Source: an uncultured Bacilli bacterium (GTDB lineage: Bacteria; Bacillota_I; Bacilli_A; RF39; UBA660). Taken from it: DNA of 32,136 nt. Shown piece after piece: positions 2,925 to 26,278 of the stretch. The notes under the pieces were generated by a model. That model saw nothing but the letters and a program-made list of their open reading frames with translations. It was not told the DNA's origin and made no database searches. The first letter of the stretch is position 1. Every line of letters starts with the position of its first letter. Location of the stretch: the NCBI GenBank assembly GCA_944358795.1, contig CALVRW010000038.1, positions 1 to 32,136 of the forward strand, given 5' to 3'. The translations under genes were made by a program, and so were the position numbers.

Positions 2925-3059
2925 CTACTCACTAACTAAGACACCACGAGCCGAGCGATCACTGCTCATGACACCGTTGTTATGGGTCGAGCTAAACACA
3001 CCAGAGTTCACACTATTGAGGCAGCGACCACCGCGGTACACCCAAGGGTGGGACGTGTT
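2925..3059 (-). other. Candidate DGR variable region at the 3' end of the pilin-like gene
   Basis: Codons 467-510 end in C (17), T (17) or G (9), and only once in A, in a window where A-ending codons are very common. GC content rises to roughly half in this segment and drops again at both borders. The encoded peptide follows the RGG...SGVF...G...GV-type pattern at the end of C-type-lectin DGR target proteins. DGRs replace template adenines by any base, mostly at AAY codons, which would produce exactly this excess of NNC/NNT codons. No template repeat or DGR reverse transcriptase is seen in the window, so the call is inference. Confidence 0.6.
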
Positions 3060-4457
3060 AGGCATATATCCATAATCATCATACCAATGTATTGCTGTTG
3101 ATACATAAACTTCTTTCGTCGCATCTCCTAATTTACTAATACTATGATTTTCTCTATTTGTATTATATTTATATTGGTCATAATATTTACTATCTGGAGC
3201 ACTTGTAAATCCACTACTTGCTGTATTAAAACTTCCATCTTGGTTTGCACTATTTGCCATTACATTTTCCCAAGCACCTCCACTCATATCAAAGATTCCG
3301 GTAATATTTCCAGTCGTACTTTGATTATAAGTTTCATTTCCTTTACTTCCATAAGCATTCTTACAGGTGCTCGTACTATCTTCACTAGCACTGTCAGCTC
3401 CACATCCTGTTGTATAACTACTATTATTATTTAAGATAACTTCTCCATTTTTTCCATATTTACTATGGCTTAAATATGCGACTGCTCCCCATTCACTATT
3501 TTTCATCATATGGGAATCATAACTACTTAGTCCATAATTACTTCCCATACTTTTAATTATATTAAATAATGAACTTACATTTTGATTTCTTAATGAAGCT
3601 ACATTTGGTTTGATGGTTGGGTTACTTTGACTTCCAGTTAACTCAAATTTTCCTACCCATATCCCTGATAATTCTGTACTTCCAAAGGTAAACGCTGGAT
3701 GCGTTAACCATTCTCCATTTTTTGTACCCGTACTTTTTGGTGTACTCTTACTTTCAAATTCGATTTTAATTTCTTGTGGTTGGGATTCATTTCCTTCGAC
3801 ATTCCATAGTTGATATTTATATCTTGGTATCCATACATAGTAAGCTAAGATATCGGATTCAGTAATTGCTGTACCAGCACTCGCATTTTTATACTTATCT
3901 CTACTCTCATTTGTTACTGCTACGGCATTTGCCCATCTCTTTTGATCGTAATTATACCAATCACCATTGACGTCAGCTTTTACAGTTTTACCATTACTAT
4001 CAAAATCAACTGGTATTAATCCATCTTGAATCACTGGTTTTTCTACATCAGAAGTATTACTTCCTGTAACACAATCTTTTTCTGTTTTCTTACTTTCATC
4101 TATGGTTACTTCTTCTCTACCATAATCTTTTACAACACAGTATCCATTAATCCAAGCGCGTAATTGAGTTTTCATTTCTTTATCAATATCTAGCGTAAAT
4201 TTTGTAGGTTTTGTTCCTTTCATTGGTAAATTACTATTTTCATCATAATGAAAAGGTGGATTGACATTTTTAATTCCTTCGGTTGCAGCTTTCATTTCTC
4301 CAGCTTTAATCACATTGTATCCAGCATCTCTAGCGGCTCCCTTTTTCGCATCGTTTATCACATTCATAATTAATGGTGTCGCGATTAATGCGATAACTGC
4401 AAGTATAACGATAACTGCAAGTAACTCAATTAATGTAAGCCCTTTTTTATTCTTCAT
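2925..4457 (-). CDS. Type IV pilin-like protein with C-terminal FGE/C-type-lectin-like domain, candidate DGR target
   Basis: The 510-residue protein begins MKNKKG followed by LTLIELLAVIVILAVIALI, the class III signal of type IV prepilins: cleavage expected after Gly6 by a prepilin peptidase and methylation of the new N-terminus, with Glu at mature position 5. After a pilin-like part, residues from about 205 (YYVWIPRYKYQLW) to the end resemble the formylglycine-generating-enzyme-like C-type lectin fold, including GGAWENV and RGGRCLNS near the C-terminus. No catalytic function is implied; such folds often serve as ligand-binding surfaces. The last 44 codons differ sharply from the rest of the gene (see the separate entry). 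The start is supported by AGAGGTATTAAT before ATG and by a good promoter. Substrate or ligand is unknown. Confidence 0.85.
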   Translation of the reverse strand: MKNKKGLTLIELLAVIVILAVIALIATPLIMNVINDAKKGAARDAGYNVIKAGEMKAATEGIKNVNPPFHYDENSNLPMKGTKPTKFTLDIDKEMKTQLRAWINGYCVVKDYGREEVTIDESKKTEKDCVTGSNTSDVEKPVIQDGLIPVDFDSNGKTVKADVNGDWYNYDQKRWANAVAVTNESRDKYKNASAGTAITESDILAYYVWIPRYKYQLWNVEGNESQPQEIKIEFESKSTPKSTGTKNGEWLTHPAFTFGSTELSGIWVGKFELTGSQSNPTIKPNVASLRNQNVSSLFNIIKSMGSNYGLSSYDSHMMKNSEWGAVAYLSHSKYGKNGEVILNNNSSYTTGCGADSASEDSTSTCKNAYGSKGNETYNQSTTGNITGIFDMSGGAWENVMANSANQDGSFNTASSGFTSAPDSKYYDQYKYNTNRENHSISKLGDATKEVYVSTAIHWYDDYGYMPNTSHPWVYRGGRCLNSVNSGVFSSTHNNGVMSSDRSARGVLVSE

Positions 4458-16941: not shown

Positions 16942-17145
16942 TTAATTATAACGATTCTCCTTACGCGCTCTTTTACGACTATTTCTGATTGCTTCTTTTT
17001 TCGCTTTTCTTCTTTTTACTCCAGGTTTCATATAACCATCTAATCTATCGCGTACTTGTTTTTGGAGGCCATCTTTAGCGTTTCTTTGTTTCAACGTACG
17101 AAGTGCACCGTCAACGTTACCGTTTCTTACAACAACTGTAGCCAT
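16942..17145 (-). CDS. rpsU: 30S ribosomal protein S21
   Basis: S21 is a small basic protein of the 30S platform that helps translation initiation. From ATG 17145 the product is 67 residues: VVVRNGNVDGALRTLKQRN, then DGYMKPGVKRRKAKKEA and a basic tail. GGGAGGGATTATCTA before this ATG fixes the start; a longer frame exists upstream but has no such site and begins within the promoter. It is the first gene of rpsU-yqeY and has a consensus promoter. It lies just downstream of the bacteriocin operon on the same strand. Confidence 0.97.
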   Translation of the reverse strand: MATVVVRNGNVDGALRTLKQRNAKDGLQKQVRDRLDGYMKPGVKRRKAKKEAIRNSRKRARKENRYN

Positions 17146-17176: not shown

Positions 17177-17205
17177 ATTATAACACGGATAGTAAGGGAT
17201 TTCAA
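17177..17205 (-). promoter_or_regulatory. Promoter of rpsU-yqeY
   Basis: TTGAAA (17205-17200), 17 bases, then TATAAT (17182-17177) with an extended TG (TGTTATAAT) on the minus strand: one of the strongest promoters in the window. Confidence 0.85.
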
Positions 17206-17231: not shown

Positions 17232-17375
17232 TTACATAGAAAAACTAAAGGAAAACAAAAATTGACGCAATAAAATACCAATTTCTATTCCAATTCGATA
17301 TATAAAATAAAAGAAAATTAGAAAAATACAGAAAAGAAGAAAATATAAAATTGTTTTTTTAATATGGACAAGCAT
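17232..17375 (-). CDS. Small hydrophobic membrane protein, candidate bacteriocin immunity protein
   Basis: This 47-residue frame, below usual length cutoffs, starts MLVHIKKTIL and has one strongly hydrophobic segment at about residues 9-26 (YFLLFCIFLIFFYFI), then IGIEIGILLRQF. Its ATG at 17375 lies inside the 3' end of the 54-residue bacteriocin precursor in another frame (17-base overlap), and AAAGGA stands five bases before it, so translation is plausible. A tiny membrane protein directly behind the precursor genes is where immunity proteins of class II bacteriocins usually sit; the role is inferred from position. It could also be a chance frame in AT-rich DNA, although it stays open over its full length with a good ribosome binding site. 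Confidence 0.5.
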   Translation of the reverse strand: MLVHIKKTILYFLLFCIFLIFFYFIYRIGIEIGILLRQFLFSFSFSM

Positions 17376-17523
17376 TGTTATCCTTTACTCTACGAATCGC
17401 ACTTCCTAAACTCCTACCAACGTCTAAAAAAATATCTAAAATTCTAACAAAGGAAGATACCAATGTTCCTGTAATATTAATTCCACCCCTAATATTTTGT
17501 AGTTGTTCTTTTTCTAATTTCAT
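17359..17523 (-). CDS. Double-glycine leader bacteriocin precursor, peptide 2
   Basis: A 54-residue peptide with the leader MKLEKEQLQNIRGG, which fits double-glycine leaders (L-x-x-E-x-L-x-x-I-x-G-G) cut by C39 peptidases after GG. The predicted 40-residue core starts INITGTLV, has an amphipathic middle (SSFVRILDIFLDVGRSLG) and ends AIRRVKDNNACPY with a single cysteine. The ATG overlaps the stop codon of peptide 1 in an ATGA, so both are made together, as in two-peptide class II bacteriocins. It resembles small Firmicute bacteriocin precursors ending in a GRSLG-AIRR-type segment, from memory and unverified. Function as a toxin, or alternatively as a signal peptide, is inferred. Confidence 0.8.
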   Translation of the reverse strand: MKLEKEQLQNIRGGINITGTLVSSFVRILDIFLDVGRSLGSAIRRVKDNNACPY

Positions 17524-17663
17524 TCTCGGCACTGATATGGTCTTAAAAAACCGTCGATAACACCTATGATAAAAACAATTCCAACAACGATAACAGATGC
17601 CGTACCAACGGATAAACCACCACCATAAATTGTTTTTAACTCGCAGTTTTCTATCTGATTCAT
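17520..17663 (-). CDS. Double-glycine leader bacteriocin precursor, peptide 1
   Basis: From ATG 17663 the peptide has 47 residues: leader MNQIENCELKTIYGG and a very hydrophobic 32-residue core (GLSVGTASVIVVGIVFIIG...RPYQCRE). The leader fits the C39 double-glycine type. The core could span a membrane and carries GxxxG-like spacings (GLSVG, GIVFIIG), a feature used for helix pairing in two-peptide bacteriocins. The ATG overlaps the stop codon of the accessory gene (ATGA), and the stop overlaps the start of peptide 2 in the same way. GGGTGG lies six bases upstream. A longer frame begins at 17720 but lies within the accessory gene and has no such site. Confidence 0.8.
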   Translation of the reverse strand: MNQIENCELKTIYGGGLSVGTASVIVVGIVFIIGVIDGFLRPYQCRE

Positions 17664-18088
17664 AAAAACCACCCTTTCATTTTTTTTAAGTATTCTTTCA
17701 TAATTGTCGTTTTTCCACAAGAAAAGCGTAAGGATATAAATTGATTTTCTGTTTGATATAGATTGGGCTGTAGGTGCAAAAAAAGTTCTACTTCACCACT
17801 TTCTAAAAATCTAGTATTGCGTATTTGATACCGATACTCTTTTTTTTCAATCCATACTTTTTGTTGATTCACTTGAGAAATAGTAACAGGATTCATATGA
17901 ATTACTACGACAATTTCATTTTCTATTTTCTTAGTAACACCAATTACGTGTTCTTGCTTTTGATATGGAATCATCATGATAATATACACAAACAATAATA
18001 AAATAAGTAAAAGAAACAAGTAACAAGTTGCTAGTCTTTCTTCTTTTTGATAGAAATAAAATTCATACTTTTCCTCTAACTGTAACAT
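17660..18088 (-). CDS. Short HlyD-like bacteriocin secretion accessory protein
   Basis: The 142-residue protein has a cytosolic N-terminus, one membrane segment at about residues 23-42 (LFLLLILLLFVYIIMMIP) and an outside part rich in beta strands (KIENEIVVVIHMNPVTISQ, EVELFLHLQPNLYQ). It ends LRFSCGKTTIMKEYLKKMKGW, like the last segment of LcnD/HlyD-type adaptors from bacteriocin exporters. Full adaptors are over 400 residues; here the coiled-coil and lipoyl-like parts are absent. It overlaps the exporter gene by 13 bases and peptide 1 by 4. The role as a miniature adaptor is inferred from position and topology; an immunity protein is the alternative. Confidence 0.55.
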   Translation of the reverse strand: MLQLEEKYEFYFYQKEERLATCYLFLLLILLLFVYIIMMIPYQKQEHVIGVTKKIENEIVVVIHMNPVTISQVNQQKVWIEKKEYRYQIRNTRFLESGEVELFLHLQPNLYQTENQFISLRFSCGKTTIMKEYLKKMKGWFL

Positions 18089-20160
18089 ACTTCTTTTAAT
18101 ACTCCATCTTTTAGTTCCAAAATACGGTCATATAAATAACGATTTTCCAAACGATTACGATGAGAAATTACAATCATCGTTTTACTAGAATACTTCCAAA
18201 ATAATAAACGCATGATTTGATATTCTGATTGCTCATCTAATTGATTCGTTGCTTCATCCAATAATAAAATTTGATATGAATTTAATAGCGCTCGAGCTAA
18301 AATAATTCTTTGTCTTTCACCACCCGAAAAATTACTACTATGATCATCTAACACAGTATGCATTCCTAACTGATACTTTTTTAAAATAGAAGTAATATCA
18401 CAAAGCTTTAGCACTTCTGAAACCATTTGTGGTGTGACAACACGATTCATTAAAATATTTTGATAAAGCGTACCAGAAAATAATACTCCTTTCTGTGGTA
18501 CATAAGTAATTGCTCGTTTTAAATCTTCTTTCCGTATATCACAGATATCTACCCCATCAAAATAAATCATATCTCTATGAACTTTTTCATATTTCATTAA
18601 TAACTTTAATAGTGTTGATTTCCCACTACCACTGGCACCTAATAATAAAATTTTTTCTCCTTTTTTAATCGATAAAGAAATTCCATTTAATAAGGCTTGT
18701 TCTTCTTGATAAGAAAAAGATAACTGATGAAAAGTAATATCCCCTTGAATGTTATATGGTAATAAAGAAACGTTTTCTTCTCTTAACAATAAATAAGAGA
18801 TTCGATCATAAGCATTCTTTGCATCTCCATAATAAATATATAACATCTGAAATTGCGAGATTGCCGATACAAGATAACTGCTTAATAATTGAAAAAATAA
18901 TAAATTTCCCATTGATAATGTACCTTCTATAATAAAAATACAACCAATGAGTAATTGTAATAAAACAACAACGTCACTAACAGTCGATTGTAATAATTGA
19001 TAGTTAGCCGTAAATAATTGATAATTTCTATCTTTTTTAAAATAAGAAAATAAAGTTTCTAAATATAAAGAATGCATCTTTTTCTCTATATGAATCCCTT
19101 GAATATTACTAAGGCCAGATAACAAATCAGATAAAACAGTTGTAATATTTGCCTTTTTCACTTTTACATTATAATTTTTATTTTGATAGGTTTGATAAGT
19201 AAAACGAAATAACAAGAAATAAAATAATAACAATATAAGTTCTATTTCAAACAGTTGAATATTTAAGTGATAGAGTATCATAAGGGAAAGAATAAACATT
19301 ACTAAGTCAAAGGAAAAAAATTGATAACAGATTCCTAAAAAATTCTGTAGCACTGGTAAGTCTTCAATTCTAGAAAGTAATTCACCTACAGTTCGATGTT
19401 GATAGTATTGTTGAGGTTGAGAAAGAAGTCGTTTTAAAACATTGGACGTTAAAAATAATTGTAGTTTGTGATAAAAATTTAAATATAATCTTGTTTTGAT
19501 ATATGTTGTAACATGAAGTAACAAATAAATACAAGCACCTGTAAAAAATAACATATAAAAAAATTGATACTCCATTCGATGCTCTACTGCATCAAACATC
19601 CATTTTGTAAGAAAACTAGAACAAAGAGAATAAAATCCTATCATAAGAGAAAAACAACATAAACGAATTGATTCTTTTTTAAACCGCTGGATAATGAAAT
19701 ATAAAAAAGTTAAAAAGGATGTATTGGTATCTAATTGTTCAATGGGATGAATCGGATAAAATAAAATTGCAATATTGGTCCACTCCTTTTGGAATGTTTT
19801 AAAAGATACTGTTTTAATTCCACAAGCAGGATCAGCAATGGTTAATGTTTCACGTAAAGAATTTATCTGGTAAACAACGACATAATGATAACGTTCTAGT
19901 TTAAGATGCGCAATAAAAGGAACATGTAACTGTTTCTTCTCATCTAATGTAGTTTTTATTCCCCAAGCATGAAAACCAAACTGCTTTGCTGCCTCTATTA
20001 AATCATAAGCACTTGTACCTTTATTTGTTGTATGTGTTAACTGTCGAATCCTTTCCATATTCGCATAACCACCATAATATTTTAAGAGCATGGAAAGACA
20101 AGCAACCCCACAGTCGGTTTCATCTTGCTGTTTTACAAATGGATATTTTTTTAGTCCCAT
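18076..20160 (-). CDS. Peptidase-containing ABC transporter for double-glycine peptides
   Basis: This 694-residue exporter cuts the leader off double-glycine peptides and exports the core with ATP. Residues 1-135 form a C39 cysteine peptidase with Gln11, Cys17 (DETDCGVAC), His92 (RYHYVVVY) and Asp110 (IADPACG). A six-helix membrane domain follows at about 160-440. The ATPase domain has Walker A GASGSGKST (508-516), signature FSGGERQR (from 611), Walker B ILLLDEAT with Asp635/Glu636, and the switch His667. All catalytic residues are present, so it should be active. AGGGGGTGAAGAAGT precedes the ATG. The downstream genes overlap one another to the end of the locus. The substrates are most likely the two GG peptides encoded in the same operon. 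Confidence 0.94.
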   Translation of the reverse strand: MGLKKYPFVKQQDETDCGVACLSMLLKYYGGYANMERIRQLTHTTNKGTSAYDLIEAAKQFGFHAWGIKTTLDEKKQLHVPFIAHLKLERYHYVVVYQINSLRETLTIADPACGIKTVSFKTFQKEWTNIAILFYPIHPIEQLDTNTSFLTFLYFIIQRFKKESIRLCCFSLMIGFYSLCSSFLTKWMFDAVEHRMEYQFFYMLFFTGACIYLLLHVTTYIKTRLYLNFYHKLQLFLTSNVLKRLLSQPQQYYQHRTVGELLSRIEDLPVLQNFLGICYQFFSFDLVMFILSLMILYHLNIQLFEIELILLLFYFLLFRFTYQTYQNKNYNVKVKKANITTVLSDLLSGLSNIQGIHIEKKMHSLYLETLFSYFKKDRNYQLFTANYQLLQSTVSDVVVLLQLLIGCIFIIEGTLSMGNLLFFQLLSSYLVSAISQFQMLYIYYGDAKNAYDRISYLLLREENVSLLPYNIQGDITFHQLSFSYQEEQALLNGISLSIKKGEKILLLGASGSGKSTLLKLLMKYEKVHRDMIYFDGVDICDIRKEDLKRAITYVPQKGVLFSGTLYQNILMNRVVTPQMVSEVLKLCDITSILKKYQLGMHTVLDDHSSNFSGGERQRIILARALLNSYQILLLDEATNQLDEQSEYQIMRLLFWKYSSKTMIVISHRNRLENRYLYDRILELKDGVLKEVCYS

Positions 20161-20212
20161 ACTTCTTCACCCCCTCACCTATATCATTCGATAAAACTTT
20201 TTAAACTCCTTC

Positions 20213-25042: not shown

Positions 25043-26278
25043 ATGAAGTAATCATATAAAAGTGTAAATATCGTAAAAGAAAATCTAGGAAAAAGTGATT
25101 TTGTATCTAAATGTAGAATACATGAGAAAGATTATATAAGAAAAAGAAAAGTTGTTCCACAAGATATTATTTTATACGAATTAAATAAGAGAGGATTAAG
25201 TAGTAAAATGGAAATAATAAATTTCAATAATATTAATGATATTAAAAATATAAGCTCTCCAGGTCTATTAAAACAAAGAGAAAAATTAAATCCAAACGCA
25301 TTCATTTATTTAATGCAAGAAACGTTAAAAGAGTTTTATGTAGGATATCAAAACGAAGTGAAAACATATAAAGGATATGTATTAACAGGAATAGATGGAA
25401 GTGATTTTGAAATTCCAAACACAAAAAGTTCAAGAGAAAAATATAACGGAAAACAACAAAAACAATGTGCAAGAGTAACAGTCTCAACATGTTACGATTT
25501 GTTAAATCATTATACTCTAGATACAATAGTTGAAAAATATGATTATAGTGAAACAGAAATGGCACGAAGACATTATGAAACAATCAATAAAGAACAATTA
25601 TTAGGAAATTTTAAATCAATCAGAATAATGGATAGAGGTTATAGAAATTTAAGTAATATATATAACTATGTAAAAAATGATGATAAGTTTTTAATCAGAA
25701 TAGCATCATCAGTTTATGAAAAAGAAAACCAATCTATGAAGTCAAATGATGAAATTATAGAGATAAAGTATGAGTATAATCGAGCAAAATATTATAAACA
25801 TACTGATCCAGAACTATATGAATATTTAAAAAGTGGAAATACAATAAAAGTAAGATGTGTCAAGATAGAATTAGACACAGGAGAAATAGAAACATTATTG
25901 ACTAATTTAGATAAAAATAAATTTACGACAAACGAAATAAAAGAGTTATATAATTTGCGTTGGCAAATAGAAATAAATTATAGACATCTAAAAAATGATT
26001 TAAAGATTGAAAATATAACCAGTAGCAAAGAAATTTTAATTAAACAAGATATATATAGCCAAGTCTTAGTTTCCAATATGCTTCAAGCATTTATAAATGA
26101 TAACGATGAAAATATTAAACAAGAAAAATATAAAAACAAGATGAAAACAAACACGAATATGTCAGTTGGAATTTTTAAGAATACATTGATTTATATTCTA
26201 TTAGAAGATAATGCCAAGAAACGTTCAGAAATGATGGATAATTTTTGTTTAGCAATAGAAAAATATATTGTTCAATAA
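25043..26278 (+). pseudogene. IS4-family DDE transposase with in-frame stop at codon 3
   Basis: The frame starts at ATG 25043 behind AGAGGTAAAG, reads Met-Lys, meets TAA at 25049-25051, and is then open to 26278. The part between the stop and the next ATG (25208) encodes 52 residues that look like real transposase N-terminus (KENLGKSDFVSKCRIHEK, VVPQDIILYELNKRG). In the part from 25208 (356 residues) the DDE residues are Asp63 (GIDGSD), Asp142 (IMDRGY) and Glu255; the YREK signature Y248-x2-R251-x3-E255-x6-K262 of IS4-type transposases is perfect. Without readthrough or an alternative start the protein would lack its N-terminal 55 residues, so a recent inactivation is likely. A sequencing error is the alternative. 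Confidence 0.75.

Follow-up and report, generated by a model that had tools for sequence, protein, structure and literature searches.

A conserved and probably competence-coupled two-peptide operon in a family of uncultured Bacilli

Competence-associated two-peptide bacteriocins are known from streptococci, namely, CibABC of Streptococcus pneumoniae, where cibABC is universal in the species, and CabABC of S. mitis (PMC13059744). For class IIb bacteriocins such as lactococcin G, the plantaricins, and carnobacteriocin XY, a five-gene architecture has been described, and the GxxxG motif is the hallmark of two-peptide bacteriocins (PMC6957408). We analyzed an operon of this general kind in a 32,136-nucleotide stretch of DNA (the window) from an uncultured bacterium of the GTDB family UBA660 (class Bacilli_A, RF39), which is contig C38 (CALVRW010000038.1, assembly GCA_944358795.1) of a 1.17-Mb genome. 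Its five open reading frames (ORFs) encode an ABC exporter with a C39 peptidase, a small accessory protein, two peptides with double-glycine (GG) leaders (peptide A, pepA, and peptide B, pepB), and a small membrane protein (peptide C). We put at roughly 60% the probability that this is a competence-coupled, class IIb-like two-peptide system belonging to the core genome of the whole family and working like CibABC. A literature search on RF39 together with bacteriocins or double-glycine peptides returned nothing relevant.

By layout and description, not by sequence comparison, the operon resembles CibABC and CabABC in its two GG-leader peptides with GxxxG-type motifs, its small membrane protein, and its link to competence genes. 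Unlike these systems, it brings an exporter and an adaptor of its own, shows hardly any diversification across a family of more than 140 genera, and encodes a membrane protein resembling peptide B. With the class IIb systems (PMC6957408) it shares two precursors, a C39 exporter, an accessory protein, and GxxxG cores, along with a membrane protein that is a candidate for immunity, but it differs in that no three-component regulator was seen, in its competence-type promoter, in its near-universal vertical inheritance, and in the C-terminal cysteine of both peptides. Adjacent GG-leader precursors, GxxxG in both cores, and a dedicated C39 exporter with an accessory protein support, at the level of locus structure, a predicted class IIb membership.

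A C39 ABC exporter followed by an accessory protein with a transmembrane (TM) segment and a beta domain, at a conserved chromosomal place, is also found in Mycoplasma (Mbov_0121 exporter and MAG1140; models NF045998 and NF045999). However, no GG peptides were adjacent in the Mycoplasma-type loci read, and the window proteins fell below both models, with 280 of 500 bits (NF045998) and 21 of 35 bits (NF045999). We therefore did not retain this link other than as a distant parallel. The loci in question (L166-L170, from the mycoplasma-like family f15, in which TGA is read as an amino acid) carry the exporter and the NF045999 accessory near ybeY-, cdd-, and era-like genes.

Conservation and components of the system

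An exporter of the same kind was present at full length in nearly all sampled genomes of the family, and peptide B was recovered from 357 of 386 family genomes, from 242 of the 252 high-quality ones, and from 144 of 150 genera. An initial annotation, made from the letters of the window alone, had proposed a two-peptide export operon and had made this reading depend on conservation of the peptides next to the exporter in relatives. This conservation held: with an iterated profile, peptides A and B were each found after the exporter in 64 of the 66 loci read, almost always as one A and one B. The gaps are explained in L024 by the end of the contig, in L052 by an insertion within pepA, and in L026 by a pepA so divergent that it scored below the threshold. 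Loci from a separate scan of public genomes, which were excluded from model building, likewise matched the peptide models, with E values mostly of 1e-13 to 1e-25. Among the other genomes of the 296-genome sample, matches to peptide B in the class outside the family were of leader length alone, and the f4 and f18 candidates were dropped on this ground. The element in L052 (G016:C13:14000-33000) breaks pepA off behind ...GVIDGL and carries a 552-amino-acid serine-recombinase-like ORF on the opposite strand; this genome still has a pepB elsewhere.

Inheritance of the operon is supported as vertical. Exporter distances correlated with those of LepA (Mantel r of 0.49, P = 2e-4; 0.39, P = 0.006 without a congeneric pair), and the well-supported clades of the two trees agreed, with no strong conflict. 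In 29 of the 45 loci with room for it, the ribosomal protein gene rpsU comes next downstream in the same orientation, and ylbF-ylbG-rsmD lies upstream of the operon in a core clade. The peptide cores averaged 38 to 39% identity, the exporter 32%, and the accessory protein 20%. In the congeneric genome pair, dN/dS was about 0.10 for A, 0.06 for B, 0.12 for the exporter, 0.29 for the accessory protein, and 0.31 for C, all below 1. Bacteriocins of the two-peptide type usually have a patchy distribution and evolve quickly, whereas here a single pair is near-universal and conserved in more than 140 genera of uncultured Bacilli, whose roughly 1-Mb genomes hold little that is dispensable. The two-peptide, class IIb-like export operon proposed in the initial annotation is well supported by its architecture, leaders, C39 exporter, paired GxxxG cores, and conservation beside the exporter, but what had been taken for a local operon is a core feature of the whole family with a promoter shared with competence genes. 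Besides this promoter and the family-wide conservation, the initial annotation had missed that both cores contain GxxxG and that the membrane ORF resembles peptide B.

The five ORFs (17232-20160, minus strand) overlap by 13, 4, 4, and 17 bases from the exporter to the membrane ORF, exactly as first read. The exporter matched Peptidase_C39, ABC_membrane, and ABC_tran far above cut-off, and its closest solved relatives were the bacteriocin exporter 4ry2 (PCAT1) and ComA. Its C39 residues Q11, C17, H92, and D110, as well as the Walker A, signature, Walker B, and H-loop residues, were invariant across 18 exporters; the initial annotation had called all C39 and ATPase residues intact. The AlphaFold model of the accessory protein (mean pLDDT of 87.6) combines a single long TM helix with a small beta domain and a helix at the C terminus; structure comparison gave weak matches to HlyD, MexA, and BesA, none at an E value of ≤0.001. 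These matches hint at a beta-barrel of that type, and the protein is probably a miniature adaptor of the HlyD/membrane-fusion type. An ORF of at least 90 amino acids occupied the accessory position in 48 of the 64 loci with pepA, leaving about a quarter of the loci without an accessory protein.

In 33 relatives, the GG, G38, P42, and C45 of peptide A were invariant and G34 was kept in at least 90%, giving the terminal consensus GxIDGxxRPLxC. In 34 relatives of peptide B, the GG, G36, G40, and C52 were invariant, and the terminal consensus was GRSLGSAIRRxxxxxxC; the window core itself contains GRSLGSAIRR and a cysteine near its terminus. Written more loosely, the two endings read GxIDGYxRPxxC in A and GRSLGxxIRRxxxxxxC in B. 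Each core carries a GxxxG-type motif, GVIDG in A and GRSLG in B. The initial annotation had described one core as a near-pure membrane helix and the other as amphipathic with GRSLG and a C-terminal cysteine; window peptide A is hydrophobic (maximum of 0.91), and window peptide B is cationic and amphipathic (moment of 0.73). One locus, L080 (6451-7040), has two tandem A-B pairs in which all four peptides are without the C-terminal cysteine, a joint absence compatible with a bond between the cysteines of A and B.

The claim that the core peptides look new was upheld in part. The window peptides reached no family cut-off, pepB had no close family model, and a structure search found no solved structures resembling the peptides. 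Members of the pepA family, however, matched class IIb models, two of them above cut-off: the pepA products of L043 and L044 passed TIGR03949 (class IIb, lactobin A/cerein 7B family; cut-off of 21.5 bits) with 23.6 and 32.8 bits over the leader and first helix, while window pepA was not among the matches above this cut-off.

Peptide C carries no leader, and its gene overlaps that of peptide B. Its family profile matched the C-terminal part of B (probability of 87.6%, E value of 3.5e-6) and gave no match to A. Since the first choice of candidates had partly used a B-derived model and was to that extent circular, peptide C was retested with candidates chosen by position alone, that is, TM ORFs starting from 45 nt before to 60 nt after the pepB end. 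Such an ORF was present in 34 of 61 loci, and 30 of these 34 contained GxxxGxxx[RK], compared to 0.35 on average for shuffled sequences. From this likeness we infer that peptide C may be a membrane-anchored mimic of B and, most simply, an immunity protein, which would be unusual in visibly resembling the peptide it may neutralize.

The promoter and its DNA-uptake partners

A scan of the upstream region found no sigma-70-type promoter directly ahead of the exporter. The exporter promoter in the window has the form AAAGGAAAT-N12-TCGAATAATAT, and most family loci share AAAGGAAAT-N12/13-TCGAATAATATA near the exporter start codon. It resembles the Bacillus subtilis sigma-H consensus. Its bipartite AGGAA(W)T and CGAAT boxes at fixed spacing, together with a full-length SigH-like factor in the genome, place it with the sigma-H/SigX type; the gene for this factor has mrnC- and rlmB-like genes as neighbors, as does sigH in B. 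subtilis.

The pattern AGGANWTN{12,13}NCGAATNAT occurred four times in the window's genome, compared to none for the reversed control, and the four sites stood ahead of the exporter operon, comEA-comEC, comK, and one 260-amino-acid ORF. The last of these (L186 1680-2462; G000:C49) had no family match. Across the family, ComK was present in 23 of 24 genomes and ComEA in 36 of 38. A model trained on exporter promoters alone gave the regions upstream of comEA higher scores than those of 434 control ORFs (P = 3e-7), which was not generally so for comK. The promoter varies by lineage, and the exporter and comEA promoters co-vary: in 26 genomes, within-genome similarity exceeded that of permuted pairs with z = 7 (permutation without regard to phylogeny), whereas control pairings of the exporter promoter with rpsU, yqeY, rsmD, and ylbF gave z values of -1.5 to 2.3. 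The −10 regions, for example, are identical in G020, G021, and G014, and the promoter is nearly identical in G026. On promoter evidence, the operon is probably co-regulated with DNA-uptake genes. This match suggests that the peptides are made when cells become competent and ready for DNA uptake, perhaps to kill neighbors for their DNA.

A relaxed pattern gave 8 sites in G007 and 10 in G026; the genes behind them include the exporter operon, comEA, and PDDEXK_2 nuclease genes, as well as comK in G007. The nuclease-like genes behind this promoter are L289, L294, L297, and L301 (G007) and L298, L302, and L306 (G026); those of L294 and L302 pass the PDDEXK_2 cut-off. These sites suggest that the competence regulon may include recombination-type nucleases.

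Competence operons are driven by alternative sigma factors in Staphylococcus aureus (SigH; PMC3486894) and in Streptococcus mutans, where SigX with its cin-box raises bacteriocin expression too (PMC4497675). The operon promoter resembles the streptococcal cin-box CGAATA (PMC4497675), and a CGAATA-type −10 box is common to it and S. mutans; the bacteriocin link in S. mutans is indirect, whereas in the window the shared promoter stands directly ahead of the peptide operon. Judging from the shared promoter, predation coupled to competence, for which streptococci are the main known case, may be ancient and general in the family, and its members may be naturally transformable. The peptides are testable, and the promoter offers a marker for the competence regulon, which in relatives includes the PDDEXK_2 nuclease genes.

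Possible roles of the peptides

In the CibABC-like reading, a SigH-like alternative sigma factor would co-transcribe the operon with comEA-comEC upon competence. With help from the miniature adaptor, the exporter would then remove both GG leaders and export the two peptides, A being almost entirely a membrane helix and B an amphipathic helix of cationic character. Mature A and B would probably pair via their GxxxG faces in the target membrane and permeabilize neighbors, whose released DNA would be taken up by ComEA/ComEC, as with pneumococcal CibAB. Peptide C, where present, would probably shield the producer by occupying the site for the GxxxGxxxR face of B.

Several points weigh against this reading. 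The peptides are conserved and not diversified, unlike typical bacteriocins. Peptide C is absent from about half of the loci and so is not required everywhere; with both C and the accessory protein missing from 12 of 61 loci, the locus has no immunity gene that all members share. The promoter partnership with comK holds in a few close relatives but fails for the family in general. The co-variation signal comes from about half of the 26 genomes, with 7 ranking first, and the permutation ignores phylogeny. Finally, both the reading of the operon promoter by the SigH-like factor and the killing by the peptides are inferred.

Near-universal vertical inheritance, low diversification, and peptide C make a non-lethal role in DNA uptake a serious alternative, albeit one we consider rather unlikely. 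Here, the peptides, made with the competence proteins, would be an exported part of DNA uptake, a surface or membrane factor, and not killers. Their near-universal, single-copy, and strongly conserved state, the immunity gene that is not universal, and the promoter common to comEA would all agree with this, while the locus layout, the GG leaders, and the paired GxxxG cores are of the class IIb bacteriocin type, and peptide C fits immunity. We also know of no competence system that needs such peptides. In an equally doubtful form of the idea, natural transformation throughout the family would depend on secreted A and B, which would act as a peptide-based DNA-uptake or envelope-opening factor and not as a weapon, with C as a membrane counterpart gating B.

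The class IIb features would also suit an ordinary bacteriocin for general gut competition, the promoter likeness then reflecting a shared stationary-phase sigma factor, since SigH in Bacilli serves stationary-phase genes too. We regard this as improbable: the genome contains few copies of the promoter pattern, the targets that can be identified besides this operon are comEA-comEC and comK, and near-universal vertical inheritance with low diversification would be unusual for such a weapon. That the peptides are pheromones, one or both of them signaling competence through a ComA-like exporter, would be in keeping with ComA among the closest solved relatives of the exporter and with the competence link of the promoter, but it is quite unlikely given that the peptides always come as a pair and are long, hydrophobic, and strongly conserved, that pheromones usually diverge between species, and that no histidine kinase or response regulator was seen adjoining the operon within the window. 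Sporulation-linked killing (cannibalism), which could draw on the SigH-type promoter, on the SpoIIP- and GPR-like ORFs of the window, and on the SpoIIIAH- and GerE-like ORFs that several relatives carry next to the operon, is very improbable, as the identifiable promoter partners are competence genes and the SpoIIIAH-like ORF is without a family match.

Feature coordinates and neighboring genes

Table 1. Features of the operon and its downstream neighbor in window coordinates
Feature	Position	Strand	Basis or remark
Peptidase-containing ABC exporter (C39 peptidase, TM, ATPase), 694 amino acids	18076..20160	-	Domain matches, relatives
Accessory protein, 142 amino acids, probably a miniature adaptor	17660..18088	-	AlphaFold, weak family matches
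Peptide A (pepA) precursor, 47 amino acids: 15-residue GG leader (17619-17663) and 32-residue hydrophobic core ending GVIDGFLRPYQCRE	17520..17663	-	
Peptide B (pepB) precursor, 54 amino acids: 14-residue GG leader (17482-17523) and 40-residue cationic amphipathic core	17359..17523	-	
Peptide C: leaderless 47-amino-acid membrane protein, candidate immunity protein	17232..17375	-	GxxxGxxxR as in peptide B
Sigma-H/cin-box-like promoter: GAAGGAGTT (20204-20212), 12-nt spacer, TCGAATGATATAG (20179-20191)	20179..20212	-	18 nt ahead of exporter start codon
Promoter box just upstream of expected transcription start: TCGAATGATAT			
rpsU (ribosomal protein S21), downstream neighbor, outside the system	16942..17145	-	Own sigma-70-like promoter (17177-17205)

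The rpsU promoter has 11 of 12 matches to the sigma-70 type. Elsewhere in the window, ORFs read by eye include one resembling an IS4-type transposase (25208-26278, plus strand) and the SpoIIP- and GPR-like ORFs. A 510-amino-acid ORF (2925-4457, minus strand) shows the N-methylation signal of type IV pilins and matches ComGE weakly. In relatives, SpoIIIAH-like (no family match), GerE-like, and other sporulation-type ORFs adjoin the operon in L026, L027, L032, L033, L037, L046, and L055, and a PilB/ComGA-like ATPase gene lies close to it in L031 and L035.

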